The translations under genes and the position numbers were made by a program. The notes under the pieces are model-generated. The model was given only the letters and a program-made list of their open reading frames with translations, was not told the origin of the DNA and did no database searches. A DNA stretch of 64,000 nucleotides from Ramlibacter sp. (GTDB lineage Bacteria > Pseudomonadota > Gammaproteobacteria > Burkholderiales > Burkholderiaceae_C): assembly GCF_028291745.1 (NCBI RefSeq), contig NZ_JAQGNQ010000086.1:1-64000 (forward strand). The letters are read 5' to 3'. Below, piece by piece: positions 11,796 to 32,267 of this stretch (position 1 is its first letter; each line of letters starts with the position of its first letter).

Positions 11796-11807
11796 ATACA
11801 GACTGCC

Positions 11808-14094: not shown

Positions 14095-14190
14095 GAGGTG
14101 CTCCCTGGGCAAAGACTTCATGCTAGGGAGACCCTGCCGTCACCGGCGTAGGACGGGGACGACAACCTGGGGCGGGGTGCAATGCGGTAC

Positions 14191-14304
14191 TTCTGAACGC
14201 AGAAGGCGCAGAAGGCGCAGAAGAAACGCAGAACACGCAGAAGAACATCCCTCAAGGATTTTTCTGCGCCTTCTGCGCACTTCTGCGCCTTCTGCGTTCA
14301 AGAA
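14191..14304. repeat. Long inverted repeat built of CGCAGAAGG units
   Basis: The left arm begins TTCTGAACGCAGAAGGCGCA and the right arm ends as its reverse complement (…TTCTGCGTTCAAGAA). The arms are about 45 nt with a few mismatches around a 25-nt loop. Each arm is a tandem of CGCAGAAGG units. It lies between two minus-strand genes, downstream of ilvD's neighbour promoter region and upstream of nothing coding. It is the best-preserved member of the family. Confidence 0.85.
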
Positions 14305-14348
14305 TGCCGACGATCGCGCGGCGCATGTTCCGCCGCGCGATCAAATCC

Positions 14349-16046
14349 TCAATACAAGTCCAGCACCGCCCCCTTGCTCGCGCTCGACGCATTGAATGCG
14401 AACTTCGCCTGCACGCCACGCGTGTAGCGCGGCGCGGGCGCGGTCCATCCGGCGCGGCGCTTGGCGATTTCCTCGTCGGGGACGTTCAGCTGCAAGCGCA
14501 GCTGCAGCGCGTCGATGGTGATCGAGTCGCCCTCGTTCACGAACGCGATCGTGCCGCCCGCCGCGGCTTCCGGTGCGACGTGGCCGACCACCATGCCCCA
14601 GGTGCCGCCGGAGAAGCGGCCGTCGGTGATCAGGCCCACGCTCTCGCCGAGGCCGGCGCCAATCAGCGCACCGGTGGGCGCCAGCATCTCCGGCATGCCC
14701 GGGCCGCCCTTCGGGCCGAGGTAGCGCAGCACCATCACGTCACCGGGCTTGATCCTGCCGTCCAGAATGGCCTTCAGCGCGGTCTGCTCGTCGTCGAACA
14801 CGCGCGCCGGGCCGGTGATCACCGGGTTCTTCAGGCCCGTGATCTTGGCCACCGCACCTTCGGGCGACAGGTTGCCCTTCAGGATCGCCAGGTGGCCTTC
14901 CCGGTACATCGGATCGCTGATCGGACGGATCACGTCCTGGTCGGCGCGCGGTGCATCCGGCACGTCGGCCAGCGTCTCGGCAATGGTCTTGCCGGTGATC
15001 GTCATGCAGTCGCCGTGCAGCAGGCCGGCCTTGAGCAGCATCTTCATGACCTGCGGAATGCCGCCGGCCTGGTGCAGGTCGACGGCCAGGTACTTGCCCG
15101 AGGGCTTCAGGTCGCACAGCACCGGGGTGCGCTTGCGGATGCGCTCGAAGTCGTCGATGGTCCACTCGACCTCGGCGGCATGCGCGATGGCCAGGAAGTG
15201 CAGCACCGCGTTGGTGGAGCCGCCCGTGGCCATGATCACCGCCACGGCGTTCTCGAGCGACTTCCGGGTCACGATGTCGCGCGGCTTCAGGTCCTTGCGA
15301 ATCGCTTCCATCAGCACCTTGGCCGATTCGTGCGCAGAGTTCTGCTTCTCGTCGTGCGGGTTGGCCATCGTCGACGAATAAGGCAGCGACAGGCCGATCG
15401 CCTCGAAGGCCGACGACATCGTGTTGGCCGTGTACATGCCGCCGCAGGAGCCGGTGCCCGGGATCGCGGCCTGCTCGATTTCCCGGAGATCCGCATCGCT
15501 GATCTTGCCGGCCGCGTTCTGGCCCACGGCCTCGAACACGCTGACGATGTTCAGGTCCTGGCCACGCCACTTGCCCGGCAGGATGGTGCCGCCATAGACG
15601 TAGATCGCCGGGACGTTGGCGCGCAGCATGCCCATCATGCCGCCCGGCATGTTCTTGTCGCAGCCGCCGACCACCAGCACGCCATCCATCCACTGGCCCT
15701 GCACGCAGGTCTCGATGCAGTCGGCGATCACCTCGCGGCTGACCAGCGAGTACTTCATGCCCTCGGTGCCCATGGCCATGCCGTCGCTGATCGTCGGGGT
15801 GCCGAAGATCTGCGGATTGCCGCCGGCCTCCGCGATGCCGCGCACGGCTGCGTCGGCCAGCTTCTGCAGGCCGCTGTTGCACGGCGTGATGGTGCTGTGG
15901 CCGTTGGCGACGCCGACCATGGGCTTGCCGAAGTCGGTCTCCTTGTAGCCCATGCCGTAGTACATGGAGCGGTTCGGCGCGCGCGACTTGCCTTCGGTGA
16001 TGTTGGCGCTGCGCAGCGGCTGGATGGGGATGGTCTTCTTGTCCAT
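14349..16046 (-). CDS. ilvD: Dihydroxy-acid dehydratase
   Basis: This 565-residue Fe-S enzyme dehydrates 2,3-dihydroxy acids to 2-keto acids in valine, isoleucine and pantothenate synthesis. Cluster and active-site cysteines are visible in [16 protein letters not shown] and [12 protein letters not shown]. The C-terminal half has the expected [12 protein letters not shown]. The length is normal for the IlvD family. It is divergent from a LysR gene, which may regulate it. Related sugar-acid dehydratases share the fold, but the motif set and length fit IlvD. Confidence 0.93.
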
Positions 16047-17141: not shown

Positions 17142-18278
17142 GTGCCGCACCCCATGCGACGGATCGCCATCCAGTCCCTCCTGTTCGATCGCGGCAAGCT
17201 GGTCGCTTCGCTGCTGGGCGTGGCCCTGGCCACGGCCCTCGCGTTCGTGCAGATCGGGCTGTACCGCGGATTCCAGATCAACTCCTCGACGGTCATCCAG
17301 CACGTCGGCGGCGACTTGTGGGTGGTGCCTACCGGGATCGACGTCATAGACAACGCGCAGATCATGTCGCCAGGCCCGCGCAATCTCCTGCTCTCGGATC
17401 CGTGCGTCGCCGACGCGCGGGCGGTGATCTACGGCTTCGTGGTGATCCAGAAACCGAGCGGCACGCGCTCCACCGCCCTCGTGGTCGCCGCCGATCCGCG
17501 GCGCGGACGGGAAGTGCCCTGGGCCGTCATCGACGGCACCGCGGCCGGGCTCGAGCAGCCGCTGCGCATCAGCGTCGACCGCACTGATCTCGACAAGCTC
17601 GAGCTGCCGGCCAAGGCACTCGGCTCCACTTTCGAAGTGCGGGGCAAGCGCGTCGTCGTGGCGGCGGTCACCGAGGGCATCCGGGCGTTCACGCTGAACC
17701 CCTATTTCTTCACCTCCATGACCAACGCGCGCAGGCTGCTGGATCTCGGCGAGAGCCAGGCGATGTACTACGCGGTCGACTTGGCGGCGCCGGCCTGCGC
17801 CGGTGAGGTGATCGCCTGGATGAAGCGGCAGCCGGACGTGCGGCTCCTGCCCACCTCGCAGTGGATGGAGACCACCGAGGCGCACTGGGTGAGCCGCTCG
17901 GGCGTCGGCATGGTGCTCGCATTCACCGCCGTGCTCGGCCTGATCGTCGGCGGCGTCATCGTCGGCCAGACGCTCTACTCGATGACCAAGGAGCACCTGA
18001 TCGAGCTGGCCACGCTGAAGGCGCTGGGCGCGCGGCCCGGCGAGCTGGCGGGCTTCGTGCTGTGGCAGGTGACCGTGCTCGGCGCGATCGGCGGCGCGGC
18101 CGGCTTCGCCCTGGCGCTCGCGCTCCAGCGCGTGCTCGTGCGGGCGAGTCTGCCGGTCGTGCTCTCGCTTCAAACGGTGGCGCTCGGCGCCGCCGCCACG
18201 CTCGCGATGTGCATGGTCGCCAGCGTCACGAGCTTGCGCGTCGTCCTCAAGGTCGAGACGGCAAAGGTATTGCGATGA
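17142..18278 (+). CDS. DevC-like ABC transporter permease (FtsX/MacB fold)
   Basis: This 378-residue inner-membrane permease resembles DevC, the permease of the heterocyst glycolipid exporter. It has one N-terminal helix (KLVASLLGVALATALAFVQI), a 200-residue periplasmic domain (GGDLWVVPTG, FVVIQKPSG) and three C-terminal helices in an FtsX arrangement. It opens a devC-devA-devB-GNAT operon. The start may be GTG 17142 or ATG 17154 (MRRIAIQSLLFDRGK); neither has a convincing ribosome site. The neighbouring lipid-modifying operon suggests a lipid as cargo. Confidence 0.85.
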   Translation: MPHPMRRIAIQSLLFDRGKLVASLLGVALATALAFVQIGLYRGFQINSSTVIQHVGGDLWVVPTGIDVIDNAQIMSPGPRNLLLSDPCVADARAVIYGFVVIQKPSGTRSTALVVAADPRRGREVPWAVIDGTAAGLEQPLRISVDRTDLDKLELPAKALGSTFEVRGKRVVVAAVTEGIRAFTLNPYFFTSMTNARRLLDLGESQAMYYAVDLAAPACAGEVIAWMKRQPDVRLLPTSQWMETTEAHWVSRSGVGMVLAFTAVLGLIVGGVIVGQTLYSMTKEHLIELATLKALGARPGELAGFVLWQVTVLGAIGGAAGFALALALQRVLVRASLPVVLSLQTVALGAAATLAMCMVASVTSLRVVLKVETAKVLR

Positions 18279-19012
18279 GCGCCGCACCGCCGCAATCCGT
18301 CCTCGTGCGCGCGCACGAGGTCTCCAAGAGCTTCCACTCCGGGGCGATCGACGCCGACGCGCTCCACGACGTCTCGATCGAGGTGCGCACCGGCGAGCTC
18401 GCGCTGCTCATGGGGCCGTCGGGCTCGGGCAAGACGACGCTGCTCTACATCCTCTCCGGGCTGATGCGGCCCACGAGCGGCGACGTCGAGCTGTGCGGCG
18501 TGACCATCACGCGCCACTCCGACAAGGTCTCCGCCGAGGTCCGGCGCCGGCACGTGGGCTTCATCTTCCAGACCTACAACCTGTTCCCGGCGCTGAGCGC
18601 GCTCGATAACGTGGCCGAGGTGTCGGTGATGAAGGGCGCCCCCAGGCACGAGGCGCACGCGCGGGCGACCGACATCCTGACGCGGGTTGGCCTCGGCGAC
18701 CGTCTGCGCCATCGCCCGGGCGAACTTTCCGGCGGCCAACGGCAGCGCGTGGCGATCGCCCGGGCGCTCGCCGGCGAGCCGACGCTGATCGTGGGCGACG
18801 AGCCGACCGGCGCGCTCGACAAGAACACCGGGTACGCGATCGTGCAGCTGCTGCGCGACCAGGTGAGCGAAGCGCGTGGCGTGCTGCTGGTCACCCACGA
18901 CCTGCGCCTGCGCCGGTTCGCCGACCGGATCATCGAGATCGACGACGGCCGCATCGTGGCGGACTCTCCCGTGACGCAATCCGGGCAGGCGCTGGAGCGC
19001 GACCATGCGTAG
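18275..19012 (+). CDS. DevA-like ABC transporter ATP-binding protein
   Basis: This 245-residue ATPase of the MacB/LolD/DevA class has Walker A GPSGSGKTT, FIFQTYNLFPALSALDNV (Q-loop), signature LSGGQRQR, Walker B LIVGDEPTGALD and switch His in VTHD. Its ATG overlaps the permease stop (ATGA), so the two are coupled. It would energise export through a tripartite pump with the DevB-like adaptor. Confidence 0.9.
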   Translation: MSAAPPQSVLVRAHEVSKSFHSGAIDADALHDVSIEVRTGELALLMGPSGSGKTTLLYILSGLMRPTSGDVELCGVTITRHSDKVSAEVRRRHVGFIFQTYNLFPALSALDNVAEVSVMKGAPRHEAHARATDILTRVGLGDRLRHRPGELSGGQRQRVAIARALAGEPTLIVGDEPTGALDKNTGYAIVQLLRDQVSEARGVLLVTHDLRLRRFADRIIEIDDGRIVADSPVTQSGQALERDHA

Positions 19013-20057
19013 AACGGCGGCGTTCGCGCTCGCCGCCGGGATCGGGTTCGCCGCCGCGCTGGCGTGGTGGGAAGCTCCCTCGGGCCGCGGAGAGCCTGCG
19101 CGCGCAGAAAAGGCGGACGAGCGCGAGCAGCGGGTCGTTGCGCAGGCGCAGATCGTGCCGATCGACGGCATCATCGAAGTGCGCCCGCTCGCCGAAGGCA
19201 AGGTCCTGAGGGTCCTGGTGCAGCCCGGCGACCGCGTCGAGATCAACCAGCTGCTCGCCGAGATCGAGAACGATCTGCCCCGGGCGACGCTGCAGCAGCG
19301 CGAGGCCGACGCCAGGGCCGCCGCCGAGCGGCTCGCGCTCGCGGCGGAAGGCACCCGTCCCGAGGATCGCGAGGCGCTGGCGGCGGCCGCGGAGGCGGCG
19401 GGCAGCGAGTCGGACCTGGCCGCGGATCGCCTGCAGCGACAGCGCCAGCTCTCCGACCAGGGCTTCGTCAGCCCGCAGTCCGTCATCGAGGCCGAGCGCG
19501 CGGCGGCCACGGCGCAGGCCCGGGCGCGCGAGGCCCGGATGCGCATGAAGGCGGGCGACGCCGGCGGCCGCCCGGCGGAAGTGCGCGCGGCACGCGAGCA
19601 GCTCGCTGCCGCCGTCGCCGTGCTGAACCAGAGCAAGGTGGCGCTCTCGCGCACCCGCATCGCCGCGCCCATCGGCGGGATCATCATGGCGCGCAGTATC
19701 AATCCCGGCGACATCATCGGTACGAACGTCACCTCCCCGACGCTGTTCAAGATCGTCGACCCCAAGCGCGTCGAAGTGCGCGTGGAGATCGAGGACTCGC
19801 TCGCCGACCGCGTGGAGCTCGGCCAGCCCATCGCCTTCGTGCTGCCGGGCAGCAGGATCCGCATCGGCGAAGGCAGGGTCTCGCGCATCGCGCCGCAGGT
19901 GGAGAAGCGCACGATCGGAGCGGACGACGCGCGCATCCGTGCTGACAGCATGATCCGTCCGGCGTGGAGCGACTACAAGCCGCTCGCCGGCGGCGGCGTC
20001 CCGCCCGTCAACTTCCGACTCGAAGCATGGATTCAACCATCGTACTCACAGAGGTAG
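19005..20057 (+). CDS. DevB/HlyD-family membrane fusion protein
   Basis: This 350-residue periplasmic adaptor has one N-terminal membrane anchor (AFALAAGIGFAAALAWW), a biotinyl-lipoyl-like half (VRPLAEGKVLRVLVQPGDRVEINQLLAEIEN), a long coiled coil rich in Ala/Glu/Arg (about 85-205) and the return lipoyl half (RIAAPIGGIIMARSINPGD). It overlaps the ATPase gene by 8 nt. It would bridge the DevC/DevA pump to an outer-membrane TolC-type channel, none of which is encoded nearby. Confidence 0.87.
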   Translation: MRRTAAFALAAGIGFAAALAWWEAPSGRGEPARAEKADEREQRVVAQAQIVPIDGIIEVRPLAEGKVLRVLVQPGDRVEINQLLAEIENDLPRATLQQREADARAAAERLALAAEGTRPEDREALAAAAEAAGSESDLAADRLQRQRQLSDQGFVSPQSVIEAERAAATAQARAREARMRMKAGDAGGRPAEVRAAREQLAAAVAVLNQSKVALSRTRIAAPIGGIIMARSINPGDIIGTNVTSPTLFKIVDPKRVEVRVEIEDSLADRVELGQPIAFVLPGSRIRIGEGRVSRIAPQVEKRTIGADDARIRADSMIRPAWSDYKPLAGGGVPPVNFRLEAWIQPSYSQR

Positions 20058-21199
20058 ACAGCGTCGTGATCGCCGAGCGCGACGTCGCGCGCAAGCGGGA
20101 CCGGCGCGAGTTCGTCGAAGCGGCGTGGGAGCTCCTCGGAGACGAGGCCAACTGGACGCCGCCCATGATCTCCGAGGAGCTGGACCAGATCGACCCCGCC
20201 CGCAACCCCTTCCTCGCGGGTGGGCACGTGCGGCTGTTCATGGCGATGCGGGGACGACGGGTCGTCGGCCGCATCGCTTACCTCGAGGGACCGTATCTCG
20301 TCGCCGGCTTCGAGCAGGGCGTGGGCTGCTTCGGCTACTTCGCCTGCCGCCCCGACGCCGAAGCGGCGGCGGCGCTGCTCGAGAGCGTCACGACGTACGC
20401 GCGCTCGCGCGGGCGCTCCAGGCTGCTGGGGCCGTTCAGCCCGACGCTGTACGACTACCCCGGCATCCTCGAGGAGGGATTCGACGCGCGGGCCACCCTG
20501 CTCACGAGCTTCAATCCTCCCTGGTACCGCGACTTCTTCGCGGCGGCCGCGTTCGTGCGCTGCAAGGAGCTGCTCGCTTTCGAGATCGCGGTGAGCGAAG
20601 AGCTTCCCGAAGGGCTGCTCAGGGCCGAGCAACTGGCGCGCCGGTCCGGGATAGAGATCCGGCACCCGGATTTCCGCTCGTTCTCCGGCGAGCTGAAGAG
20701 ATTCTTCGAGGTCCACTGGGGCGCGATCAACGCCAACTGGGGCGAGGTCGAGTTCACCGACGGGCAACGCGAGTACCTCGCGCAACACATGCGGCCGCTG
20801 CTCAGGAAAGAGCTGGTCGCCTTCGCCTACTACAAGGACCAGCCCGTCGGCATCGCCCTGGCCATTCCCGACGGGGTCGAGGCGCTGAAGACGCTGAACG
20901 GCCGGCTCGGCCCGATCCGCGCGCCGCTGGCGATGTACCGGCTTTCCCGGACCGATTCGGCGCGGCTGCCGCTGATCGGGGTGCTGCCCGAGCACCGGCG
21001 GCGCGGCATCGACGGAGCACTGATCGCGGACCTCTGGCGCGAAGGCTACCGGCGCGGGATCCGCAGATGCGATATCTCCTGGGTGCTCGCCGACAACCAC
21101 CGCATGGTGAACACGATCAAGCGGATCGGCGCCGCACCCCGGCGCCGATGGTGGATCTACTCGAAGACGCTCCAGGAGACTGCGCGGCAGGGAGATTGA
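20027..21199 (+). CDS. GNAT-fold N-acyltransferase, candidate ceramide-synthase-like enzyme
   Basis: This protein of about 390 residues belongs to a GNAT-like family recognised by NPFLAGGHVRLFMAMRGRRV, GCFGYFACRPD and LLGPFSPTLYDYPGILEEGF; the C-terminal half keeps a GNAT-like LPLIGVLPEHRRRGIDGAL acyl-CoA loop. The GNAT-type bacterial ceramide synthase of Caulobacter is of similar size and build. Beside a lipid operon with an alpha-oxoamine synthase, N-acylation of a long-chain base is the leading idea, but this is inference. The ATG 20027 overlaps the adaptor gene by 31 nt; a GTG at 20066 is an alternative start. Confidence 0.72.
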   Translation: MDSTIVLTEVDSVVIAERDVARKRDRREFVEAAWELLGDEANWTPPMISEELDQIDPARNPFLAGGHVRLFMAMRGRRVVGRIAYLEGPYLVAGFEQGVGCFGYFACRPDAEAAAALLESVTTYARSRGRSRLLGPFSPTLYDYPGILEEGFDARATLLTSFNPPWYRDFFAAAAFVRCKELLAFEIAVSEELPEGLLRAEQLARRSGIEIRHPDFRSFSGELKRFFEVHWGAINANWGEVEFTDGQREYLAQHMRPLLRKELVAFAYYKDQPVGIALAIPDGVEALKTLNGRLGPIRAPLAMYRLSRTDSARLPLIGVLPEHRRRGIDGALIADLWREGYRRGIRRCDISWVLADNHRMVNTIKRIGAAPRRRWWIYSKTLQETARQGD

Positions 21200-21226
21200 G
21201 ACTCCCTACCTTCTGGAGAGCCGCTG

Positions 21227-21259
21227 CCCTCACCCCAACCCTCTCCCGGAGGGAGAGGG
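21227..21259. repeat. CCCTCACCCCAACCCTCTCCC-type palindromic repeat
   Basis: This is a common intergenic repeat of proteobacteria. CCCTCTCCC (21239-21247), GGA loop and GGGAGAGGG (21251-21259) form a perfect hairpin. It separates two convergent operons and probably acts as a bidirectional transcript end. The minus-strand gene reads into it, so its last codons (GLSPSPSGRGLG) are encoded by the repeat. Confidence 0.85.
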
Positions 21260-23332
21260 AGAAAGCCCCGGGGGCGCGTGTTCCGCGCCCGCGCTGCACT
21301 GCGGACCGCGCAGGAATTCCTCGATGCGGGCGATGCCTTCGCGCAGGCGCTCGGGATGATCGCTCTTGCAGTCCGACGATTCGGCGGGGTCCGACGCCAG
21401 GTCGTAGAGAAAATACTCGCCGAGCCGGCGGTCCAGCAAGGTCTTCCAGCCGGCCGTCATCGCGGCCACTTCGTGCGCGAGCGGCGTCTCGCACACCGAG
21501 TAGGCGACGCGCGCGGGCTCCCCGACACGCGCGTCGAACATCGAGCGGCCGGCGTAGCCCTCGGGAATGGTGAGGCCGGCGAGATCCAGGATCGTCGGCG
21601 CGATGTCGACATGCTGCGTGACGATGGGCGGGCGCGGCGCGGCGCGTCCGGCGCCGTGCACGATCATGGGCACATGGATTACCTCGTTGAAGAGGCTGGC
21701 TCCGTGGCAGCAGAAGCCATGCTCGTAGAACGCCTGTCCGGTGTCGCCGGTGATCAGGATCGCGGTCTCCGAATACGTCCCCGAGGCCCGCAAGGCGTCC
21801 AGCAGCCGGGCGATCTGGAGATCGATGTAGCCCAGGCTGGACAGATACCGCGTCCACACATCGGCCGTGTCCCGGGCGGCGTAGCGCGCGAAGCGCAGGC
21901 TGGGTGGCGACGGGACGGCGCGCCGGGGGTCGCGCGAGAATCCCTCGGGCACGAAGAACGGCACGTGCGTCGACTGCAGGTTCATCGCCAGGAAAGTCTT
22001 GCGGTCCCGGTTCTGCTCCAGCCAGTCGATGGCGGCGGCGACGGTGTCGGCGTCGTCGAACTTGCCGCCGTGCCGGCCCCGCGCCAGCCGTTCGCGCAGC
22101 GCCGGGTTCGCGTGCGCGGCGTCGCCCCCGCCGGGCCCGGCGTGGAGATAGGGGGCGAGCGCCGGCGAGCGCAGGCGTTCGTGCATGCCGCCCCAGGTCT
22201 CGTCCTGCGAGGAGAAGAACGCGCAGCGGAATCCCGCGCGCGCGAGTTCGTCGTAGACCAGCGGCCCGTGCCGCGGGGCACGCCCCGCAGTGCGCGGTGC
22301 GCGGCCGCGCCGGCCCTTCAATTCCGGATAGCTGCCGTCGAACAGGCAGACGTCCGCGTAATCCGAGTGGCTCGCGTTGGAATAGTGGGCGGGGAAATTC
22401 ACAGCCTCCCGGGCGATCGCCGCGATGGCCGGGATGGCCCGGGCGCGCGCCGCGTCGGTGACGACGTCGGCCCGGAGCGACTCGATCACGATGACGATGA
22501 AGCGCGTCCTCGGCGTTTCGCCGCCCGCCGGACGCCCGGGCGCCCTCGAAGCCTGCGCTGGCGTGCGAGGCCGTGCCGCCTCCGGCGTCGTCCCGGACGA
22601 GTGCCCCCCCGCCGGCCCGCCGAACAGCAGCGTGGAGAGCGCGCCTGCCTGGTTGCGCAGGAACGCGGCGACGAATTTTTGCCGGGGCACCTGGGACCCG
22701 AATCTCGGCGAGGTCACCGGCTCGTTCTCCGCCAAGGCAAGCCGTGCCAGCGCGAACGTAGCCAGCGCGACCAGCGCAGAGAGCGCGAGGCCGGCCACGA
22801 CCGCGCTTTGCGCGTAGCGGACGGCCGAAGGCGCGAGCGCGTCGACCAGGCCCCGGAAGGCAAGCGGCGGCACTATCAGCGCCGCGAGCAGCACGACGAC
22901 GAGCAGCGGCACCACGGCAGGCGCCGACTCCGCCTCCTGGAGCAGCCCCATGCGGAAATTCCGCAGCGAGAAGACGAGCCCGTCGCGGTCGAGGAAATGG
23001 CCCGTCGCCCGCAGGAAGCCCCAGCTCGTCGCGAGGGTGTAGAACAGGAAGGCGTTCGCCGCCTGCGCAGCCCAGGCGAGCGCGGCCGCCAGGCCGCTCC
23101 CGCCCGCGACCAGCAGCGGCAGCGATGCGATGGCGGACACGGCCAGCGAATACGGCAGCAGCAGGCACAGCTCGAGGAGATAGCCGGCGAGCTGGACGCG
23201 CACCGGCGCACGGCGGCGCTCGCTTCTCGGGTCGGGCAGCACGAGCGCGACGATGGCGCTCGCGCAGCCCAGCACCGCCCAGAGCAGCAGGGCGCCGCAC
23301 GCGACCGACGCGAGAGCTTGCGGCCCGCCCAC
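21230..23332 (-). CDS. Alkaline-phosphatase-superfamily membrane enzyme (LtaS/sulfatase-like), possible lipid head-group transferase
   Basis: This 700-residue protein has about five N-terminal membrane helices (1-200) and a periplasmic sulfatase/LtaS-like domain (about 275-650). RFIVIVIESLRADV carries the family's first metal acid (Glu284), and the nucleophile region YSNASHSDYADV offers Ser321/Ser323 instead of Thr or Cys. The late metal site reads ITGDTGQAFYEHG: Asp530 is kept, but the usual His of GDHG is Thr531. It ends the lipid operon, 7 nt after the hydroxylase stop, with AAGGA before a GTG start. Phosphoethanolamine or phosphoglycerol transfer to a lipid is the best guess; a sulfatase or inactive role remains possible. 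Confidence 0.75.
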   Translation of the reverse strand: MGGPQALASVACGALLLWAVLGCASAIVALVLPDPRSERRRAPVRVQLAGYLLELCLLLPYSLAVSAIASLPLLVAGGSGLAAALAWAAQAANAFLFYTLATSWGFLRATGHFLDRDGLVFSLRNFRMGLLQEAESAPAVVPLLVVVLLAALIVPPLAFRGLVDALAPSAVRYAQSAVVAGLALSALVALATFALARLALAENEPVTSPRFGSQVPRQKFVAAFLRNQAGALSTLLFGGPAGGHSSGTTPEAARPRTPAQASRAPGRPAGGETPRTRFIVIVIESLRADVVTDAARARAIPAIAAIAREAVNFPAHYSNASHSDYADVCLFDGSYPELKGRRGRAPRTAGRAPRHGPLVYDELARAGFRCAFFSSQDETWGGMHERLRSPALAPYLHAGPGGGDAAHANPALRERLARGRHGGKFDDADTVAAAIDWLEQNRDRKTFLAMNLQSTHVPFFVPEGFSRDPRRAVPSPPSLRFARYAARDTADVWTRYLSSLGYIDLQIARLLDALRASGTYSETAILITGDTGQAFYEHGFCCHGASLFNEVIHVPMIVHGAGRAAPRPPIVTQHVDIAPTILDLAGLTIPEGYAGRSMFDARVGEPARVAYSVCETPLAHEVAAMTAGWKTLLDRRLGEYFLYDLASDPAESSDCKSDHPERLREGIARIEEFLRGPQCSAGAEHAPPGLSPSPSGRGLG

Positions 23333-23339
23333 GATGTCC

Positions 23340-23978
23340 TTACCTCGACGCGGTGCCGAAGACGTGATCGACCCACGTGGAGAGCGTCGCGTAGTTGCTG
23401 CGCGCGTTCCTGAAGTGGTGGGTGCGGTGGCGTTCCTGCAGGGCCCGGAACAGCGGGTTGGAAAACGTCAGCTGATGCAGCGCGAAGTGGGTGACGTCGT
23501 AGGCGAGATAAGCGAGCGCGAACGCGCCGAAGAACTGGGTCGCCGGCGTGAAGCCGAGCAGCCACCACGCGGTGCAGAACACCGCGAGGCCGATCGGGAT
23601 CGACGCAGTCAGCGGCATCATGTTCCTGCGCGCATCCTGCGGATCGACGTGGTGGCAGCCGTGGATCACGAAGACGAACCGGCGCGAATACTCCCGTTTG
23701 GCGGGGAAATGAAAGATCCAGCGATGGATGGAGTACTCCGCCAGGCCCCAGACGGCCACGCCGGCAAGCGCCAGGAGCAGCCGCGCGACGATCCCCTGTG
23801 CCGACCCCGAAATCTCGGGCCAGCCAAAGCAGACGAGGCCGAGCGGCAGCCACAAGGTGATCGCCGCCAAGGGGTGCGAGTAGGTGCAGAACTCGAGGAT
23901 CGGGTTCTGGAAGAGCGTCAGGCGCTGCGCCGGTCCGCGCCGCGGCCGTCCCGGGGCGCTCTTGAGATCATTCTGCAT
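23340..23978 (-). CDS. Sterol desaturase/fatty-acid hydroxylase family protein
   Basis: This 212-residue membrane di-iron enzyme has the histidine clusters of fatty-acid 2-hydroxylases and sterol desaturases: EYSIHRWIFH (His85, His90), HGCHH (106-110), DVTHFALH (164-168) and HRTHH (184-188). Four or five hydrophobic helices fill the rest. The size and spacing resemble the catalytic part of FA2H/Scs7, which hydroxylates the acyl chain of ceramides. It overlaps the SDR gene by 11 nt. Substrate assignment is inferred from the operon. Confidence 0.87.
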   Translation of the reverse strand: MQNDLKSAPGRPRRGPAQRLTLFQNPILEFCTYSHPLAAITLWLPLGLVCFGWPEISGSAQGIVARLLLALAGVAVWGLAEYSIHRWIFHFPAKREYSRRFVFVIHGCHHVDPQDARRNMMPLTASIPIGLAVFCTAWWLLGFTPATQFFGAFALAYLAYDVTHFALHQLTFSNPLFRALQERHRTHHFRNARSNYATLSTWVDHVFGTASR

Positions 23979-24765
23979 AGACTTCGGCTCCTGATCGCAT
24001 CAGGGTCCTGCGCACCAGGCTCGTCGGCACCAGGGCCTTGGCCAGGCGGAGCAGGAGCACGTGACGCAAGGGCACGTAGACCGTCCTGCGCCTGCGCTCG
24101 ATCGCTTGTTCGATGAGCTCGGCGGCACGTTCGGCGGAGATCGAAAAAGGCGAGCGCAGGCCCATCCGCTCGTACATGGCCGTCCGCACGATGCCTGGAT
24201 ACACCTCGGTCAGCCGGACGCCGCACTCGTCGAGCGGGTCGCGCAGGGATTTCGCGAAGGCGCGCAGGCCCGCCTTGCTCGCGCAGTAGCCGTGGGAGCC
24301 CGGGCTGAACAGGAAGGCGGAAAGCGAAAGGATGACCGCGAGATGCCCGGCGCCGCGCTCGGTCATCTCGCGCGCGACGACGGAGATCGTGTGCATGGCT
24401 CCCAGAAGATTCGTCCTGACGATGTCGATCGACGCGTCGATGGGAAAGAGCGGCTCGAAGATGCCCTTGCTCACGCCGGCGTTGACGATCGCCAGGTCGA
24501 TCCCCCGGTCGCGGCATGCGCTGCGCATCGCCGCCGAGAAGGCAGCGAAATCGGTGACGTCGGTGGCGCTCACGAGCACCTCCGCGCCGCGTTGCCGGCA
24601 CGCCGAGGCGACCGCATCGAGGCGTTCGGCATCCCGCGCGAACAGCATCAGGTAGGCGTCCGGGCCGGCCAGGCGCAGCGCGAGCGCGCGCCCGATCCCG
24701 CGGCTCGCGCCGGTGATGCAGATGGAGCGACGCCGCGGTGGGCTATCGGGCGGCACGCGCGGCAC
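23968..24765 (-). CDS. Short-chain dehydrogenase/reductase (candidate 3-keto-sphinganine-type reductase)
   Basis: This 265-residue classical SDR has the dinucleotide motif TGASRGIG (18-25), NAG (95-97), and the catalytic Ser147, Tyr160 and Lys164 (YCASK). The arginine after the glycine motif (RDAERLD) favours NADPH. Next to an alpha-oxoamine synthase its natural role would be reducing the 3-keto product to the alcohol, as KDSR does in sphingolipid synthesis. It overlaps the desaturase gene by 23 nt and the hydroxylase gene by 11 nt. Confidence 0.87.
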   Translation of the reverse strand: MPRVPPDSPPRRRSICITGASRGIGRALALRLAGPDAYLMLFARDAERLDAVASACRQRGAEVLVSATDVTDFAAFSAAMRSACRDRGIDLAIVNAGVSKGIFEPLFPIDASIDIVRTNLLGAMHTISVVAREMTERGAGHLAVILSLSAFLFSPGSHGYCASKAGLRAFAKSLRDPLDECGVRLTEVYPGIVRTAMYERMGLRSPFSISAERAAELIEQAIERRRRTVYVPLRHVLLLRLAKALVPTSLVRRTLMRSGAEVYAE

Positions 24766-25765
24766 CCTTGTACAGGAACTTCAGGTGGTCCCGGAAGGCC
24801 TCGAGGTAGCTCGCGTACTCGATGTACCTGCCTTGCTTGCCGTCGCAGGCCTGCCTGATCTCTTCGCGCTTGTTGCGCAGCAGCGGATGCGGGACCGAGG
24901 GATGGATGTGGTGCTCCACCTGCAGATTCAGGCCGGCGAGATACCAGGACACGAGTTTCGACTTCACGCGGAAGTTTGCGGTCGCGCAGGTCTGGATCCG
25001 GAAGAAGTCACCGCCCCGGACGGGCAGCGGCGTCTCGTGCTCGACCCGGGTATTGCAATGCGCGACCTGGAAGATGAGGGAAAGGATCAGGCCCATCGCC
25101 GCGTAGTTGTAGGCGAACGCGGCCAGCGCCAGGCCCGTCGGCAGCAGGGCGAGCGGCAGGACCAGCGCCCAGGCGACGAACACGGTCTTGCCAATCACCG
25201 AGCGCAGGGCCAGGCCGGCCCGCTGCCGCCCCGTCAGATCCTTCGAGCCCACGCGGCCGCCGACGATGAACCGCAGATCGTCGTTGACGTGGAGCTTGAA
25301 CACGACCAGCGCATACGCGAGCAGGCAATAGCACGCCTGCGCGAAGCCTCGCAGCGGGCTGGTGCGGGACGGACCGAGATCGAGCACCCCGCCGCCGTCG
25401 AGGTCGGGATCGAACTGCGGGTTGTTCGGGTACTTGTGGTGCTCCAGATGCCGCAGCTGCCAGAGCCGGCCGTTGACGCCCGTCCAGTCGATCGCGTACA
25501 GCCCGACGTCGTTGGCGCGCGTCCCTTGCGCGAACGCGCCGTGGACGGCGTTGTGGCCCGCGTGCATCGCCAGCCCGATCACGGCGAACGGAAGCAGGAG
25601 CAGCGCGGCGGCGCCGAGCAGGTTGTCGTGGTTGGCGAGCGCCGTGCAATAGAGGAGCACGGAGCCCGCGAACAGGAGCGCGGAGCCCAGTTGCACTTGC
25701 CTCCGTGCCCGTTCGAGCGCCTCCTCCTGGGGGCGGTCGCCCGGCGGATCGGCGGTCTTCATCAT
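24743..25765 (-). CDS. Membrane fatty-acid desaturase
   Basis: This 340-residue membrane desaturase has three His boxes: HAGHNAVH (68-75), HLEHHKYPNNP (106-110 for the His residues) and QVEHHIHP (Gln282 to His286). The QxxHH third box is shared with front-end and sphingolipid desaturases. Four hydrophobic helices anchor it. The tandem ATGATG start overlaps the stop of the preceding synthase (4-nt overlap, ending at 25762). In this operon a sphingoid or N-acyl chain is the likely substrate; regiospecificity cannot be read. Confidence 0.88.
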   Translation of the reverse strand: MMKTADPPGDRPQEEALERARRQVQLGSALLFAGSVLLYCTALANHDNLLGAAALLLLPFAVIGLAMHAGHNAVHGAFAQGTRANDVGLYAIDWTGVNGRLWQLRHLEHHKYPNNPQFDPDLDGGGVLDLGPSRTSPLRGFAQACYCLLAYALVVFKLHVNDDLRFIVGGRVGSKDLTGRQRAGLALRSVIGKTVFVAWALVLPLALLPTGLALAAFAYNYAAMGLILSLIFQVAHCNTRVEHETPLPVRGGDFFRIQTCATANFRVKSKLVSWYLAGLNLQVEHHIHPSVPHPLLRNKREEIRQACDGKQGRYIEYASYLEAFRDHLKFLYKGAARAAR

Positions 25766-27045
25766 GCGAGCCTCGCTTCCTGCACGTCCAGTTCCGGGGT
25801 GCCGGACGCCATCACCCGCTCCAGCAGATCCGCGAGCGCGTCGATCTGCGCCGTGGTGTGCTCGCTCGAGATGCTGACCCTCACGCGCTGGTCCTCCAGC
25901 GGCACCGCGGGGAAGCTCACGCCGTTGACGAAGAAGCCGCCCTGGCCGACGCTGGTGACGAGCGCCGTCACGTCGCTGTTCGCCGGGACCTCGAGCGGGA
26001 AGATCGGGCTCTGCCAGTCCTTGGGCACGCCGAGCGCATGCAGCCGGTTGGCAGCGTGGCGGATGTTGCGCCGCAGCCGCTCGAGCCGCTCCGGGTGGTT
26101 GGCGAGCGCGTCGACCGCCGCGCTGGCGGCCGCCACGGTCGCCGGCGGCAGGGACGCGGAAAAGATGTACGAGCTCGCGTTGGCGCGGATCGCGAGCGCC
26201 ACGTCTTTCTTGCACGCGACGAAGCCGCCGACGGCACCGAGCGCCTTGCTCAGGGTGCCGACGACGATGAACGGCACTTCGCGGATGCCGAAATGCTCGA
26301 ACACCCCGCGCCCGGTCGGCCCCAGCGTGCCGGTGCCGTGGGCGTCGTCGACCACCGGCAGGGCACCGTAGCGCTCGCAGGTTTCGAGGATGCCGGGGAG
26401 CGGAGGCAGGTCTCCGTGCATGGAGTACAGGCCTTCGACGAACACGAAGATGGTGCCCGCGTGGTCGCTGCGGATCTCCGAGAGGTGGCGCTCCAGGTCG
26501 GGGATCGAGTTGTGCGCGAAGAACCGGCGCCGGGCCTTGGGCAGCGCGCGCGCCGCCTCGCGGAAGCTCGTATGGCCGTACTGGTCGGCCACCACGTAGT
26601 CGTGCTCCGCCACCAGGGCCCGGACCCAGGCGAGGTTCGCGGCGAACCCGCTTGGCAGGAGCACCGAGGTCTGCGTGTTCTTCAAGGCGGCGAGCTTGCG
26701 CTCGAGCTCGGTGTGCAGCGGGTTCAGCCCGTTCATCACCGGCGAGCCGGAAAAGCTGGTGCCGAATTGCTCGACGGCGCGAAGCGCCGCCTGCTTCACC
26801 TCCGCAAGCTGGGACAGTCCCAGGTAGTCGTTCGAGCCGAACATGACGACCTGCTCGGTACCGTTCCTGACGTCGGCGTTCGAGACGCTTCCCCGGCACG
26901 GGCCGTCGACGGCGAACTCGCGACGATGGATATCGCCGGAGCCGCGATACAGGGTCGCGATCAGTGCGCTCGCCTCCGTGATCCGGTCCTGGAACGGCAA
27001 GCTTTGAATGTGGAGCATCCTTTTCAAGGAACTCAAGCGCGACAT
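25762..27045 (-). CDS. Alpha-oxoamine synthase (serine palmitoyltransferase / AONS family)
   Basis: This 427-residue PLP enzyme condenses an amino acid with an acyl-CoA or acyl-ACP. Fold landmarks: FGSNDYLGLS (69-78), GTSFSGSPVMNGLNPLHTEL (95-114), the PLP-contacting VVDDAHGTG (231-239) and the Schiff-base Lys267 in TLSKALGAVGGF. The DDAHGTG form resembles BioF, but no biotin gene is near and the neighbours are lipid enzymes, so a serine-palmitoyltransferase-like role is favoured. AGGGGG six bases before the ATG is the strongest ribosome site in the operon. The amino acid used (Ser, Ala or Gly) is unknown. Confidence 0.85.
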   Translation of the reverse strand: MSRLSSLKRMLHIQSLPFQDRITEASALIATLYRGSGDIHRREFAVDGPCRGSVSNADVRNGTEQVVMFGSNDYLGLSQLAEVKQAALRAVEQFGTSFSGSPVMNGLNPLHTELERKLAALKNTQTSVLLPSGFAANLAWVRALVAEHDYVVADQYGHTSFREAARALPKARRRFFAHNSIPDLERHLSEIRSDHAGTIFVFVEGLYSMHGDLPPLPGILETCERYGALPVVDDAHGTGTLGPTGRGVFEHFGIREVPFIVVGTLSKALGAVGGFVACKKDVALAIRANASSYIFSASLPPATVAAASAAVDALANHPERLERLRRNIRHAANRLHALGVPKDWQSPIFPLEVPANSDVTALVTSVGQGGFFVNGVSFPAVPLEDQRVRVSISSEHTTAQIDALADLLERVMASGTPELDVQEARLA

Positions 27046-27203
27046 GTGAAACCCCCTGGAACGTTTGCTGGTGCGATTCTGTCCATGCTGCTTACGCCGG
27101 CTCGACCGGAGCGATCGCGCCGCTGCGGCCCGGGCATCGGGTACGCGGCGCCGCGCAGCAGCGGCAGATCGGCGCGGCCGTCGGCGTAGTCCGCCCCGCT
27201 CAT
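27033..27203 (-). CDS. Hypothetical 56-residue small protein between radical SAM and synthase genes
   Basis: The ATG overlaps the stop of the radical SAM gene (ATGA) and the frame runs 13 nt into the alpha-oxoamine synthase gene. The product (MSGADYADGRADLPLLRGAA…) is polar, with no membrane segment, no signal peptide and no recognised domain. The overlap geometry suggests it is translated and couples the two large genes. It may equally be a non-functional coupling ORF. I cannot assign a function. Confidence 0.4.
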   Translation of the reverse strand: MSGADYADGRADLPLLRGAAYPMPGPQRRDRSGRAGVSSMDRIAPANVPGGFTCRA

Positions 27204-28813
27204 GGCGCCACCCCTCGGGCGTCTCGCCAGAGGATCGGAGCCTGGATCACCGCCGGGATCTTCGGTACGAGCTCGCCGCGTGCTTCCGTGCGTTCCCGCT
27301 TCGAGTAGGCGAGATGATCGTGCCAGAGGGCGCCCTCGGGCAGCCGCTCGTACCAGGAGCCGAGCGAACGCTTGATCAGGTCGACATAGAACTGCGGCAA
27401 GACCGTCGACTCGCCTTCGAAGTAGTCGCGGAACGCGCGATCCGAAACAAGCAGCTCGCGTACCCGGCGGTGATGCCGCAGCCGGCCGCGCCCTTCCTGG
27501 GAGAGGCCGCGTACCAGGTTCAACCAGCGGGTCTCGCGCTGCGTCGCGCTGGCGAACCGCCGGTAGATCGCCCGGGGCGAGAACGTATGCCCGACGACGT
27601 CGATCAGCCGGTCGTAGAACTCCACCCAGCCGTAGTGCCTGGGCCGCACGTTCATCGCCAAGTTGTTGTTCAGCAGCGGGAAGGGGAAAGGCAGGATCCG
27701 CCCCGCCTCCTGGTACTCCAGGTTGAGCGGCGCGGCGCTGCCGTAGGAGGTGAGCAGCGAATAACCGGGAAACGCCGCCGGGCACAGATCGACGAAGCGC
27801 TTCGTGAGCTCGAACGGCTCGGCCCCCTGGTCGTTGTCCATGCCGATCACGAAGTTGGTCTGCAGGTAGGGGACGTAGCTCTGGATGAGGTTGACGTGCT
27901 CGGAGATCCTCTCCAGCTTCTCCGTCCCCGTGGTCCGCCCGACCCGGGATTTGCCGCCCAGGTCGTACCAGGACTCGATGCCGGGCAGCAGCGCCACGAT
28001 GCCGTTGTCGCGCATGCGCCGCAGGTGCGGCTCGGTCAGGATGGAGAGGCTGGTCTCGGCGATGAAGTTGATGGCCCCGCGCGGCGCGGCGCGCTCGATC
28101 AGGCCCATGTACTGATCGAACTTGATGCCGAAGTTCGGGTCGTGCCAGGCGACCAGCGGCTTGGCGAACTTGGTCAGGAGGAAGCGCAGATCCTCCTCGA
28201 TGACGTCGAACGGCAGCGTCTGGTAGGGCACGTTGGCGTCGATGCAGAAGCTGCACGAATACGGGCACCCCATGCTGCCTATCATCGGCACCACCTTGAT
28301 CCAGGGGGCTTTCTGCAGGGTCTTCTCGACGAACTTCCAGCGCTCGCGCACGCCCGGCAGCGACTGCGGCTGGCCCGGCGCCGTGACGTAGCGTCCCAGC
28401 GGGCGCTGCCGCTCGTTGGCGCGCAGCACGTCGACCAGCGTCTCGCGGTCGGTGAAGCCGAAGACGTAGTCGAAGTAGCGGCAGGCGTCCTCCGGGTAGC
28501 TGCGCGCGTGTGGCCCGCCGAGGATCGTGATGGCGCCGTTGGAGCGGCACCACGCGCTGATCGCGTAGGCGAGCGCGGCCGCGGTGGTGAAGGCGCTGAT
28601 GAAGACGACGTCGGCCTCGGTACCGACCTCGCGGGCCAGGTCCTCCCGGCCCGTGTACACGATGAAGTTGACCGCGTGTCCTTCGCTTTCGCAGAGGGTC
28701 GCGACCACCTGGGGCATGATGCTCGCCGAGTTCGCGAACATGACGTAGCCGTAGAGGGAGCGGTTCTCCCCGTTGCCGATCAGATCGATCACTGCGACCT
28801 TGAGCTTACGCAT
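27200..28813 (-). CDS. B12-binding-domain radical SAM protein
   Basis: This protein of about 537 residues has an N-terminal Rossmann-like cobalamin-binding domain (1-130; ADVVFISAFTTAAAL, ILGGPHARSYPEDA) without the DxHxxG motif, and a radical SAM barrel with the cluster motif C183-PYS-C187-SF-C190. The C-terminal third is unassigned. Such enzymes methylate unactivated carbons or rearrange substrates. As the first large gene of a lipid operon it may modify a lipid tail, but the substrate is unknown. The start at 28813 (MRKLKVAVIDLIGNG) fits the domain edge; the longer open frame to 28984 has an unlikely basic leader. Confidence 0.85.
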   Translation of the reverse strand: MRKLKVAVIDLIGNGENRSLYGYVMFANSASIMPQVVATLCESEGHAVNFIVYTGREDLAREVGTEADVVFISAFTTAAALAYAISAWCRSNGAITILGGPHARSYPEDACRYFDYVFGFTDRETLVDVLRANERQRPLGRYVTAPGQPQSLPGVRERWKFVEKTLQKAPWIKVVPMIGSMGCPYSCSFCIDANVPYQTLPFDVIEEDLRFLLTKFAKPLVAWHDPNFGIKFDQYMGLIERAAPRGAINFIAETSLSILTEPHLRRMRDNGIVALLPGIESWYDLGGKSRVGRTTGTEKLERISEHVNLIQSYVPYLQTNFVIGMDNDQGAEPFELTKRFVDLCPAAFPGYSLLTSYGSAAPLNLEYQEAGRILPFPFPLLNNNLAMNVRPRHYGWVEFYDRLIDVVGHTFSPRAIYRRFASATQRETRWLNLVRGLSQEGRGRLRHHRRVRELLVSDRAFRDYFEGESTVLPQFYVDLIKRSLGSWYERLPEGALWHDHLAYSKRERTEARGELVPKIPAVIQAPILWRDARGVAP

Positions 28814-28889
28814 GGGGCGGCCCTGCGCGCGGCGCGCGCTGATCCGGCTGGCCATGCGCCGAAGCGTTCTGCTGCACTTGCGGGTACAT
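28806..28889 (-). CDS. 27-residue leader ORF upstream of the radical SAM gene
   Basis: The ATG at 28889 has a good AGGAG seven bases upstream (28897-28901 on the minus strand). The peptide MYPQVQQNASAHGQ… ends 8 nt inside the start of the radical SAM gene (CATGCGTAA), ideal for coupling. No recognised domain is present. It may be a leader peptide, a coupling ORF or a short substrate peptide. Confidence that it is translated is moderate, and its function is unknown. Confidence 0.4.
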   Translation of the reverse strand: MYPQVQQNASAHGQPDQRAPRAGPPHA

Positions 28890-30854: not shown

Positions 30855-32267
30855 GTGAGCCCAACCGACTGGATTACCCGCGGTGCCTCTCTCTGGCGCC
30901 CCTCGTTCGAAAAGGCGGGCGGCGGCGGCGCGCCCGAGGATCGCCCCAGGATTGCGGCCGAACCCGCGAAAGCGGGGACTGTCCCCACCATCGCCCATGC
31001 TTCCCGCACGACGCGCGAGCGCTTGCAGGCCACGCTGCGCCGCGGCCAGGAGGCGCTGTCGCCCCGCGTGCTGCGACGCACCCTCGCCGAGATGCAGGCG
31101 ATCGTCGACCAGCGCGCCAGCGAGGTCGAGGGCAGCCGCCGCGCCCGCGCCTTCGCGCAGTGGTATGCCGGGGCGGGCGCCGAAGAGCGGCGCGACGCCT
31201 GGCTGCTGGTGAGCGAGCAGTTCGGTCCCGACCCGAAGAAGATCAAGACCGCGCGCGAACATTACGAGGCCGTGCAAGGCACGCCCGAAGAGGGCGGGGC
31301 GGAGATCCGCCTGCGCCGCGCCCTGGTGTCGCCGCGCATGCGCCTGCTGCAACGCTTTGCCGCCTTCCCCGAAGGCATGCGCTTCCTGGTGGACCTGCGC
31401 GCCGAACTGCTGCCGCACCTGAAGTCCGACAAGCGCCTGCTGCCGCTCGACGCCGAACTCGAGACGCTGTTCTCCACCTGGTTCGACGTCGCCTTCCTCG
31501 AGCTGCGGCGCCTGTCCTGGGATTCGCCGGCCTCGCTGCTGGAGAAGTTGATCAAGTACGAGGCGGTGCACGACATCCGCGGCTGGTCCGACCTGAAGAA
31601 CCGCCTCGACAGCGATCGCCGCTGCTACGGCTTCTTCCACCCGCGCCTGGATGGCGAGCCGCTGATCTTCGTCGAGGTGGCGCTCACCGACAGCATCTCC
31701 GACTGCATCACGCCGCTGCTCGACGAGGCCGCGGCGGTCGCCGACCTGACCAAGGCGACCACCGCGATCTTCTATTCGATCAGCAACTGCCAGACCGGCC
31801 TGCGCGGGGTGAGCTTCGGCGACTCGCTGATCAAGCGGGTGGTCGAGACGCTGAAGGACGAATTCCCGAAGCTCAAGACCTTTGCCACGCTGTCGCCCAT
31901 CCCCGGCTTTCGCGGCTGGCTCACCAAGCAGCTACCTGCCGAGAAGCTCGCGGCCTGGGAAAAGCCGCTGGAGCTGGCCCCGAAGTCGCCCGAGCGGCAG
32001 GAGCTGCTGTCCTGGGCGGCCCGCTACCTGGGCAAGGAGATGCACGAAGGCAAGCCGGCCGATCCGGTGGCGCGCTTCCACCTGGGCAACGGTGCGCGCG
32101 TCGAGCGCATCAACTGGGCCGGCGATCCCTCCTCCAAGGGCCTGAAGCAATCGTTCGGCCTCATGGTGAATTACCTGTACGATCCCAAGCGGCTCGACAA
32201 GCACCGCACGATGCTGTCGCAAGGAGAAATCCCGATGGCCGGGGCCATCGAGGACCTGTACCGTTAG
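30855..32267 (+). CDS. matA: Malonyl-CoA decarboxylase
   Basis: This protein of about 470 residues decarboxylates malonyl-CoA to acetyl-CoA. The MCD fold is clear: SEQFGPDPKKI near residue 118 in the helical domain, LIFVEVALTDSIS in the GNAT-like catalytic domain, the nucleophile loop LSPIPGFRGWL and the His in ARFHLGNGARVERINW. The start is GTG 30855 with AAAGGCGG upstream. The first 50 residues are unlike other MCDs and include a stretch encoded by a palindromic repeat (30962-30985), so the true start may be further downstream. Confidence 0.9.
   Translation: MSPTDWITRGASLWRPSFEKAGGGGAPEDRPRIAAEPAKAGTVPTIAHASRTTRERLQATLRRGQEALSPRVLRRTLAEMQAIVDQRASEVEGSRRARAFAQWYAGAGAEERRDAWLLVSEQFGPDPKKIKTAREHYEAVQGTPEEGGAEIRLRRALVSPRMRLLQRFAAFPEGMRFLVDLRAELLPHLKSDKRLLPLDAELETLFSTWFDVAFLELRRLSWDSPASLLEKLIKYEAVHDIRGWSDLKNRLDSDRRCYGFFHPRLDGEPLIFVEVALTDSISDCITPLLDEAAAVADLTKATTAIFYSISNCQTGLRGVSFGDSLIKRVVETLKDEFPKLKTFATLSPIPGFRGWLTKQLPAEKLAAWEKPLELAPKSPERQELLSWAARYLGKEMHEGKPADPVARFHLGNGARVERINWAGDPSSKGLKQSFGLMVNYLYDPKRLDKHRTMLSQGEIPMAGAIEDLYR
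30962..30985. repeat. REP-like palindrome inside the malonyl-CoA decarboxylase leader
   Basis: ACCCGCGAAAGCGGGGACTG followed by TCCCC combines the hairpin CCCGC-GAAA-GCGGG with GGGGACTGTCCCC. It resembles ACCCGC-GAAT-GCGGGT at 49225-49240, which is also followed by G-CACTGTC. It lies in frame in the variable N-terminus of the enzyme. Confidence 0.6.

Follow-up and report, generated by a model that had tools for sequence, protein, structure and literature searches.

The ceramide pathway of Caulobacter and E. coli is defined by a small set of genes (spt, acpR, aasR, cerR/epi, and bcerS/aca). In Caulobacter, the synthase and the N-acyltransferase are reported to be cytosolic and the reductase periplasmic, with the order of the steps in dispute (PMC11087976). 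For dihydroceramide synthesis, yghO and CC_1154 are both listed as aca, the gene of the acyl-CoA N-acyltransferase, and the serine palmitoyltransferase (SPT) genes of α-, β-, and γ-proteobacteria co-occur with genes for acyl carrier protein (ACP) and ACS (PMC9386255). In Pseudomonas fluorescens, a polyketide synthase (PKS) and a non-canonical oxoamine synthase, SgaA and SgaB, make sphingolipids (PMC12134224).

Here we analyze a block of ten genes (positions 17142-28813) in a 64,000-nt stretch of DNA from Ramlibacter sp. (contig NZ_JAQGNQ010000086.1), which as a whole is referred to as the window. The block encodes an α-oxoamine synthase, a classical short-chain dehydrogenase (SDR), a GNAT-family acyltransferase, a fatty acid hydroxylase, a desaturase, a B12-binding radical-SAM enzyme, an LtaS-fold enzyme, and a three-gene exporter. 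On balance, we favor the view that it is a lipid island gained by horizontal transfer, whose products would build and export a ceramide-type lipid with an N-acylated long-chain base. The locus resembles the Caulobacter/E. coli pathway in combining an oxoamine synthase with a GNAT of the same family, and in having transporter genes near the GNAT, which in that pathway are often LptF/LptG-like. On the other hand, its synthase falls outside the SPT clade, its SDR stands in for CerR, no AcpR, AasR, or CerR was seen, and its pump is of the FtsX/HlyD type. Because neither CerR, nor AcpR/AasR, nor an SPT passing its cut-off was found in the locus, it does not fit the definition of the Caulobacter-type pathway. 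It rather appears to work like a bacterial ceramide pathway, with a GNAT and an Scs7-type hydroxylase whose sequences assign them well to families of the sphingolipid type. The standard FAAL-CerR-ACP-SPT set, with a GNAT about 3 kb away, is present in another genome of the same bacterial family (G674); in the Ramlibacter genome, the search for CerR, AcpR, and AasR covered the locus. The SgaA/SgaB system, which we liken to the locus by description and not by sequence, differs in being fed by a PKS.

The acyltransferase and the hydroxylase belong to sphingolipid-type families

Although its similarity to the Pfam GNAT models is weak, the acyltransferase is homologous over nearly its full length to proteins encoded in the neighborhood of an SPT or SPT-like gene (33% identity in Rubrobacter, 32% in Streptomyces, 28% in Sphingomonas, 28% for E. 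coli YghO, and 27% in P. veronii, with E values down to 9e-63), and it keeps 24 of the 34 columns that are invariant in eight relatives. By homology, it is assigned to the YghO/CC_1154 family of ceramide N-acyltransferases, i.e. the GNAT-family ceramide synthases (bCerS/Aca/YghO). Besides these five bacteria, one genome of the same family as Ramlibacter has a relative with such a neighbor. A search at E 1e-20 detected the GNAT family in 43 out of 398 genomes of the phylum, our own among them, in which it found one GNAT. We inspected 29 neighborhoods, i.e. the loci of this search outside our genome that were fetched with 1.5-kb flanks. Four of these contain a hydroxylase-like gene (25-28% identity; the two that were domain-scanned are both FA_hydroxylase), three contain an oxoamine synthase, and 22 contain neither. 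Ten wider stretches, seven picked for an already seen neighbor and three as top scorers, contain LptF/LptG-like genes (8/10), hydroxylase- or desaturase-family genes (8/10, one weak), and a synthase (5/10). The GNAT family thus tends to keep company with genes for lipid transport and lipid oxidation. As a separate observation, LptF/LptG-like permease genes lie near ceramide-synthase GNATs in loci L151, L153-L156, L158-L160, L048, and L049, most of which bear a hydroxylase- or desaturase-family gene; these permeases are candidate sphingolipid transporters.

At E 0.1, the only PDB matches of the hydroxylase are two constructs of Scs7, the ceramide α-hydroxylase of yeast (4zr1, E 3e-18; 4zr0, E 6e-18), with the similarity confined to the hydroxylase domain of Scs7/FA2H. 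Ten histidines, which we take to be the di-iron ligands in Scs7-type hydroxylases, align over 182 residues. The FA_hydroxylase domain and this ten-His site place the protein, as judged by sequence, in the Scs7/FA2H type. Relatives at 1e-10 are present in only 4 of the 398 genomes, our own included, and all four also encode the GNAT. Considering that 42 of the 397 other genomes are GNAT-positive, the chance of finding it in all three other hydroxylase genomes is ∼0.001, by a hand calculation that assumes the same 398 genomes in both searches and ignores relatedness. Hydroxylation of the amide-linked chain has been attributed in Caulobacter to the DesA-family protein CC_0202 (PMC11324152), whereas an Scs7-type enzyme is proposed for this step here.

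Related gene sets recur in distant genomes

Distant core sets, separately arranged, exist elsewhere. In genomes G516 and G520, the order is synthase-GNAT-desaturase-hydroxylase, with about 1.1 kb from GNAT to hydroxylase, and in G520 an SDR follows the hydroxylase and a GT21 glycosyltransferase gene, presumably of the ceramide-glucosyltransferase family, lies nearby. These compact sets place the same core activities side by side, but their desaturase has a sphingolipid Δ4 domain (Lipid_DES, PF08557) and an HNEHH box, neither of which is present in the desaturase of the locus. An ABC-ATPase-like open reading frame (ORF) adjoins the synthase in G516, and neither set contains a match to the adaptor or the LtaS-fold protein at 1e-6. 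Both resemble the eukaryotic glucosylceramide route. G631 has its GNAT gene in divergent orientation to an SDR gene, and its hydroxylase gene elsewhere in the genome; the G631 hydroxylase region (L140) and the G051 locus (L134) contain no core gene besides the query gene.

Related sets are also present on two plasmids. The run synthase-GNAT-reductase-LtaS on a Rubrobacter radiotolerans plasmid (L047) shares with the locus a synthase, the best plasmid match of the GNAT (33%), and an LtaS-fold protein (25%), but it has an NAD(P)-dependent oxidoreductase for the SDR, and no hydroxylase, desaturase, exporter, or radical-SAM enzyme is annotated in the stretch. A plasmid of Acidisoma sp. PAMC 29798 (L126/L137) has a GNAT (25% identity) divergent from an SDR (35%), synthase (34%), and hydroxylase (36%), with an annotated lipoteichoic acid (LTA) synthase family gene nearby. 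This set differs in lying within capsule genes, in having a synthase of another clade, and in that its LtaS has no tblastn match to the LtaS-fold protein of the locus. All five plasmid records with a relative of the hydroxylase were viewed: an SDR like that of the locus is close by in four, and an LTA-synthase-family gene is annotated in three. One record (L128) has neither, and another (L129) bears no annotation. The preliminary description of this DNA, made from sequence and gene order, would have counted a lack of co-occurrence in other genomes as a refutation. Distant cores of synthase, GNAT, SDR, and hydroxylase, sometimes with LtaS, do co-occur, so the core set escapes this refutation; the exact ten-gene set was not found in any search made.

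Hydroxylase, SDR, and LTA-synthase-family genes lie beside capsule-type genes on the Acidisoma plasmid (L137 9909-21151) and on two Novosphingobium plasmids (L125 and L127), and the Acidisoma set, which also includes the synthase and GNAT, suggests a ceramide-type capsule anchor. The lipid of the Ramlibacter locus could likewise anchor a surface glycan in the membrane, as in capsule loci with ABC export, with the synthase, SDR, and LtaS-fold enzyme building the sugar carrier. Such a logic is that of RkpG/H/I-type capsule lipid-anchor modules, to which the locus is likened by description. These three plasmids speak for this explanation. However, no glycosyltransferase or capsule gene is present among the ten genes, the pump is of the FtsX/HlyD type, and the GNAT points to N-acylation, so we consider a glycan anchor unlikely and retain the ceramide-type lipid as the preferred product.

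The ten genes form an insert between lysR and lgt

The ten genes (Table 1) are open frames that are strongly coding, and they fill a ∼12-kb insert between lysR and lgt. They form two convergent runs separated by 30 bp. The plus-strand run reads permease-ATPase-adaptor-GNAT with overlaps of 4, 8, and 31 bp. The minus-strand run reads radical-SAM enzyme, a 154-bp gap, synthase, desaturase, SDR, hydroxylase, and LtaS-fold enzyme. From the synthase on, successive genes overlap by 4, 23, and 11 bp, and the last two are 7 bp apart. Since start codons were chosen by the analyst, a few of these figures could shift. The preliminary description had named nine of the genes, all confirmed by Pfam scan as open frames of the stated families, and was right that the minus-strand genes it named overlap or nearly touch. 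It had missed the radical-SAM gene, and the GNAT lies outside the minus-strand run, as the last gene of the exporter run. Because no match to a sigma-70-type promoter was found and terminator-like sites are not above expectation (3 observed versus 4.4 expected), operon boundaries rest on spacing.

Table 1. Genes of the locus (positions in the window) and compact gene sets in other genomes (positions in their own loci)
Feature	Position	Strand	Evidence
FtsX/MacB-type permease, DevC-like, 378 aa	17142..18278	+	PF02687 (E 8e-11), PF12704
ABC ATPase, LolD/DevA/MacB class, 245 aa	18275..19012	+	PF00005 (E 7e-35)
HlyD/DevB-like periplasmic adaptor, 350 aa, one N-terminal hydrophobic stretch	19005..20057	+	PF13437, PF16576
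GNAT N-acyltransferase, YghO/Aca/bCerS family, 390 aa, proposed ceramide synthase	20027..21199	+	nearly full-length homology
Membrane-anchored sulfatase/LtaS-fold enzyme, 700 aa, proposed periplasmic head-group transferase or hydrolase	21230..23332	-	PF00884 (E 2.5e-29)
Di-iron fatty acid hydroxylase, Scs7/FA2H type, 212 aa	23340..23978	-	PF04116; PDB Scs7
Classical SDR, 265 aa, proposed 3-keto reductase	23968..24765	-	PF00106 (E 1e-36)
Membrane fatty-acyl desaturase, 340 aa, third His box QVEHH	24743..25765	-	PF00487 (E 6.5e-27)
α-Oxoamine synthase, 427 aa, catalytic His/Asp/His/Lys/Arg kept	25762..27045	-	PF00155; alignment; tree
B12-binding radical-SAM enzyme, 537 aa, heads minus-strand run, proposed chain modification	27200..28813	-	PF02310; PF04055 just under cut-off
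Compact set, L139 (G520:C28)	7206-15145		
Compact set, L138 (G516:C6)	7708-11884		

On its left, the insert is flanked by ilvD and lysR, and on its right by lgt and a GntR regulator gene. The lgt gene was found in 21 of 24 genomes of the same genus, and these loci were viewed with about 1.5 kb on each side. In 15 of them lysR adjoins lgt, and in five ilvD adjoins lgt with no lysR between, i.e. the site is empty in 20 of the 21; the remaining locus (L111) is arranged otherwise. Close relatives of the genes are scarce. A search of 36 genomes of the genus with the synthase at E 1e-30 gave matches in 12, none above 33% identity, and a scan of genome contigs with this single query found three loci at 34-35%; because that scan used six weak peptide patterns, it lends weak support to the absence of close synthase relatives in the scanned genomes. 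At 1e-20, none of 299 further genomes of the order yielded a relative of the radical-SAM protein, and at 1e-15 a single genome, with two distant homologues, was found among 397 others of the phylum. On plasmids, no record of 232 covered 80% of the sulfatase-fold query, and the desaturase gave four weak records. Both flanks are on one 130-kb contig, in an assembly with an estimated contamination of 4.7%. Considering that the same-genus loci lack the insert, that close relatives are scarce, and that both flanks are on one contig, the ten-gene set was probably gained by horizontal transfer between lysR and lgt. The insert shows no clear shift in composition (GC 0.695, with 0.679 in the left and 0.693 in the right flank; third-position GC 0.87-0.94 in the ten genes versus 0.91-0.95 in five flanking genes), and neither direct repeats joining the two ends nor, in the window, a tRNA gene was found.

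Predicted pathway, head-group enzyme, and exporter

From the families present, we infer substrates, order of steps, head group, and export as follows. The α-oxoamine synthase would condense a fatty acyl thioester and an amino acid, for which serine is the likeliest candidate, into a 3-keto long-chain base, and the cytosolic SDR would reduce the ketone. The GNAT would N-acylate the base or keto-base, as is thought for its YghO/CC_1154 relatives, and the Scs7-type di-iron enzyme would hydroxylate the amide-linked acyl chain. A chain would be modified by the desaturase and possibly also by the B12-radical-SAM enzyme. Export would then fall to the FtsX-type ABC pump and the HlyD-type adaptor, and on the periplasmic face a head group would be added or trimmed by the membrane-anchored LtaS-fold enzyme.

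The SDR has no predicted membrane stretch, and it gave no blastp match at 1e-3 to five CerR-type reductases, one of them a fragment. In Bacteroides, BT_0972 is a proposed 3-ketosphinganine reductase (PMC11087976). The desaturase lacks a Δ4 domain, and PDB searches with it and with the radical-SAM protein returned nothing at E 0.01. The third His box of the desaturase, QVEHH, has a pattern seen in front-end desaturases and in Δ8 desaturases of long-chain bases. A Gemmatirosa plasmid gene (L042 16001-17575) encodes a protein with 57% identity to the radical-SAM protein, and no match to the other nine proteins was found around this gene. The radical-SAM protein is also ∼30% identical to the product of a G349 gene (L161 7889-9412) that lies beside a ketosynthase/condensation/reductase megasynthase; an RND pump and a phosphopantetheinyl transferase are encoded downstream in that locus. 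A tailoring role, such as methylation, would be a guess.

The LtaS-fold protein has four N-terminal hydrophobic stretches followed by a sulfatase-fold domain, and it is 25% identical to an LTA synthase family protein of Rubrobacter. Formylglycine sulfatases carry a C/S-x-P-x-R activation motif. This motif is absent here, the aligned stretch being ASHSDYAD.

The exporter belongs to the permease, ATPase, and adaptor families of DevBCA/MacAB-type systems, as had been proposed, but it scores below the curated cut-offs of DevA (214/295.8 bits), DevB (52.1/129), and DevC (TIGR01185; 92.7/290), which limits the comparison with Dev exporters to a likeness in how they may work. No gene for an outer-membrane channel is present among the ten. 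The tight coupling of the exporter genes to the GNAT gene is the only direct argument that the substrate would be the lipid of the locus. Among the matches listed in the open PMC literature, no title or abstract on DevB-type or ABC sphingolipid export, or on LtaS-type ceramide head groups or hydroxylase gene clusters, fits the locus. Of two permease relatives viewed elsewhere, one, in Beijerinckia, lies beside polyketide-type genes, and the other, in Nitratidesulfovibrio, about 6 kb from nifH.

The synthase and alternative explanations

The synthase has all five catalytic residues typical of its family (His, Asp, His, Lys, and Arg), whose roles are presumably those in S. paucimobilis SPT, and its best PDB matches are SPT structures (231 bits). 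It is below every NCBIfam cut-off, with BioF as the top model (315 bits, cut-off 426) and lower scores for the SPT equivalogs (296/640, 269/500, and 209/670 bits) and for Kbl (265/460 and 238/493 bits).

Several observations weigh against a ceramide-type lipid. In a tree of 56 rows, the synthase is a lone branch (length 1.44 changes per site) outside the SPT, BioF, and Kbl clades, and its neighbors in the best tree are three synthases from prodigiosin-type clusters and a Persicobacter synthase, at an open fork (91/85). In approximately unbiased (AU) tests, holding it with eight proteobacterial SPTs (p 0.025) or with Acidisoma-type synthases (p 0.0003) was rejected, and holding it with all 12 SPT or SPT-like rows (p 0.066) or with BioF (p 0.174) was not. 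The reductase is an adh_short protein instead of an NDUFA9-like CerR, the rest of the genome not having been searched. No AcpR or AasR was found among the ten Pfam-scanned genes, nor by eye among ORFs of at least 80 aa or in the gap between the synthase and radical-SAM genes, in a look that covered the locus and not shorter ORFs or the rest of the genome. LtaS-type phosphotransferases have a Thr nucleophile and a D-H metal pair. The LtaS-fold protein has Ser where the Rubrobacter protein has Thr (by eye, the automatic alignment being gapped there) and D-T in place of D-H, with Thr for His, at its metal site; because of these two changes, its activity may be altered. Relatives of the permease occur in 13 plasmid records, and neither of the two viewed is beside ceramide genes. 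Finally, only the ATPase (up to 47%) and the radical-SAM protein (57%) exceed 39% identity to the homologues compared, and no ortholog of the whole ten-gene set was found in any search made.

An atypical synthase is no peculiarity of this locus. The synthases of Acidisoma, G516, and G520, which are beside a GNAT and a hydroxylase, do not reach the SPT cut-offs and branch outside the SPT clades, and those of Rubrobacter (444 of 640 bits) and Streptomyces are below the cut-offs by score. As judged from these sequences, synthases of more than one lineage thus seem to serve in the ceramide set, and because GNAT- or hydroxylase-linked synthases elsewhere are also outside SPT clades or cut-offs, lineage alone cannot settle the function of the synthase. 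The preliminary description had proposed a sphingolipid-type pathway with an LtaS/sulfatase-like head-group enzyme, and had made the phylogeny of the synthase one of its checks. The GNAT family, the Scs7 homology, and the distant core sets support it in part, and the sulfatase fold (PF00884) is present. In the best tree, the synthase groups neither with BioF or Kbl nor with SPT.

The tree neighbors would fit an amino-ketone or amino-alcohol natural product, in which a PigH-like or PKS-like synthase makes a small secreted aminolipid. The synthase is 38.4% identical to a prodigiosin-type synthase and 39.0% to a PKS-fused synthase, values among its highest, but the GNAT-adjacent Streptomyces synthase is close to these (38.2%). 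The distant radical-SAM homologue beside the G349 megasynthase and the permease homologue beside polyketide genes point the same way. However, no ACP, PKS, or nonribosomal peptide synthetase gene was recognized in the locus, and the ceramide-type GNAT and the Scs7-type hydroxylase argue for a membrane lipid, which makes a natural product distinctly unlikely. A different amino acid (cysteate, alanine, or glycine) would lead to a sulfonolipid or another non-serine variant, i.e. a capnine-like or 1-deoxy base. The substrate cannot be read from the sequence, and a cysteate acyltransferase (28eh, 138 bits) is among the weaker PDB matches, but the SPT structures score higher, and an LtaS-type transferase would need the 1-hydroxyl acceptor that a serine-derived base has; we regard this variant as quite improbable. 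That the synthase is a displaced BioF-type enzyme among unrelated lipid-modifying genes, for which its top NCBIfam model and the AU test could be cited, is very improbable, since it is under the BioF cut-off, does not join the BioF clade in the best tree, overlaps the desaturase gene by 4 bp, and has counterparts in analogous synthase-GNAT-hydroxylase sets that are likewise topped by BioF yet below its cut-off.

Returning to the ceramide-type lipid, a more far-reaching version, which we put forward only tentatively, is a portable and self-contained ceramide factory that moved as one 12-kb unit. Its deep-lineage synthase, eukaryote-style SDR, GNAT, Scs7-type hydroxylase, and FtsX/HlyD-type tripartite pump would yield a phospho-ceramide that is hydroxylated and unsaturated, perhaps modified by the radical-SAM enzyme, and exported. 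If true, this would constitute a dedicated export route for a bacterial sphingolipid. With a classical SDR and a GNAT in the exporter run, the order of steps and the exit from the inner membrane could be tested in one small set of genes. More generally, our findings suggest that bacteria can acquire ceramide-type synthesis from one another as a single block, and that it can be reassembled with other synthases and reductases, with the GNAT and hydroxylase as the common core; surveys based on SPT only may therefore miss producers.

Other genes of the window and genome

In the Ramlibacter genome, a search at 1e-30 found one further oxoamine synthase (C49; L142 7133-8386). This oxoamine-synthase-like protein is in a separate deep clade, with two proteins of the same genus, and its gene adjoins, by eye, a secA-like gene. 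Elsewhere in the window, a malonyl-CoA decarboxylase gene (30855-32267) comes after the GntR gene, and positions 12550-14121 encode an FAD oxidoreductase fused to a Rieske domain.

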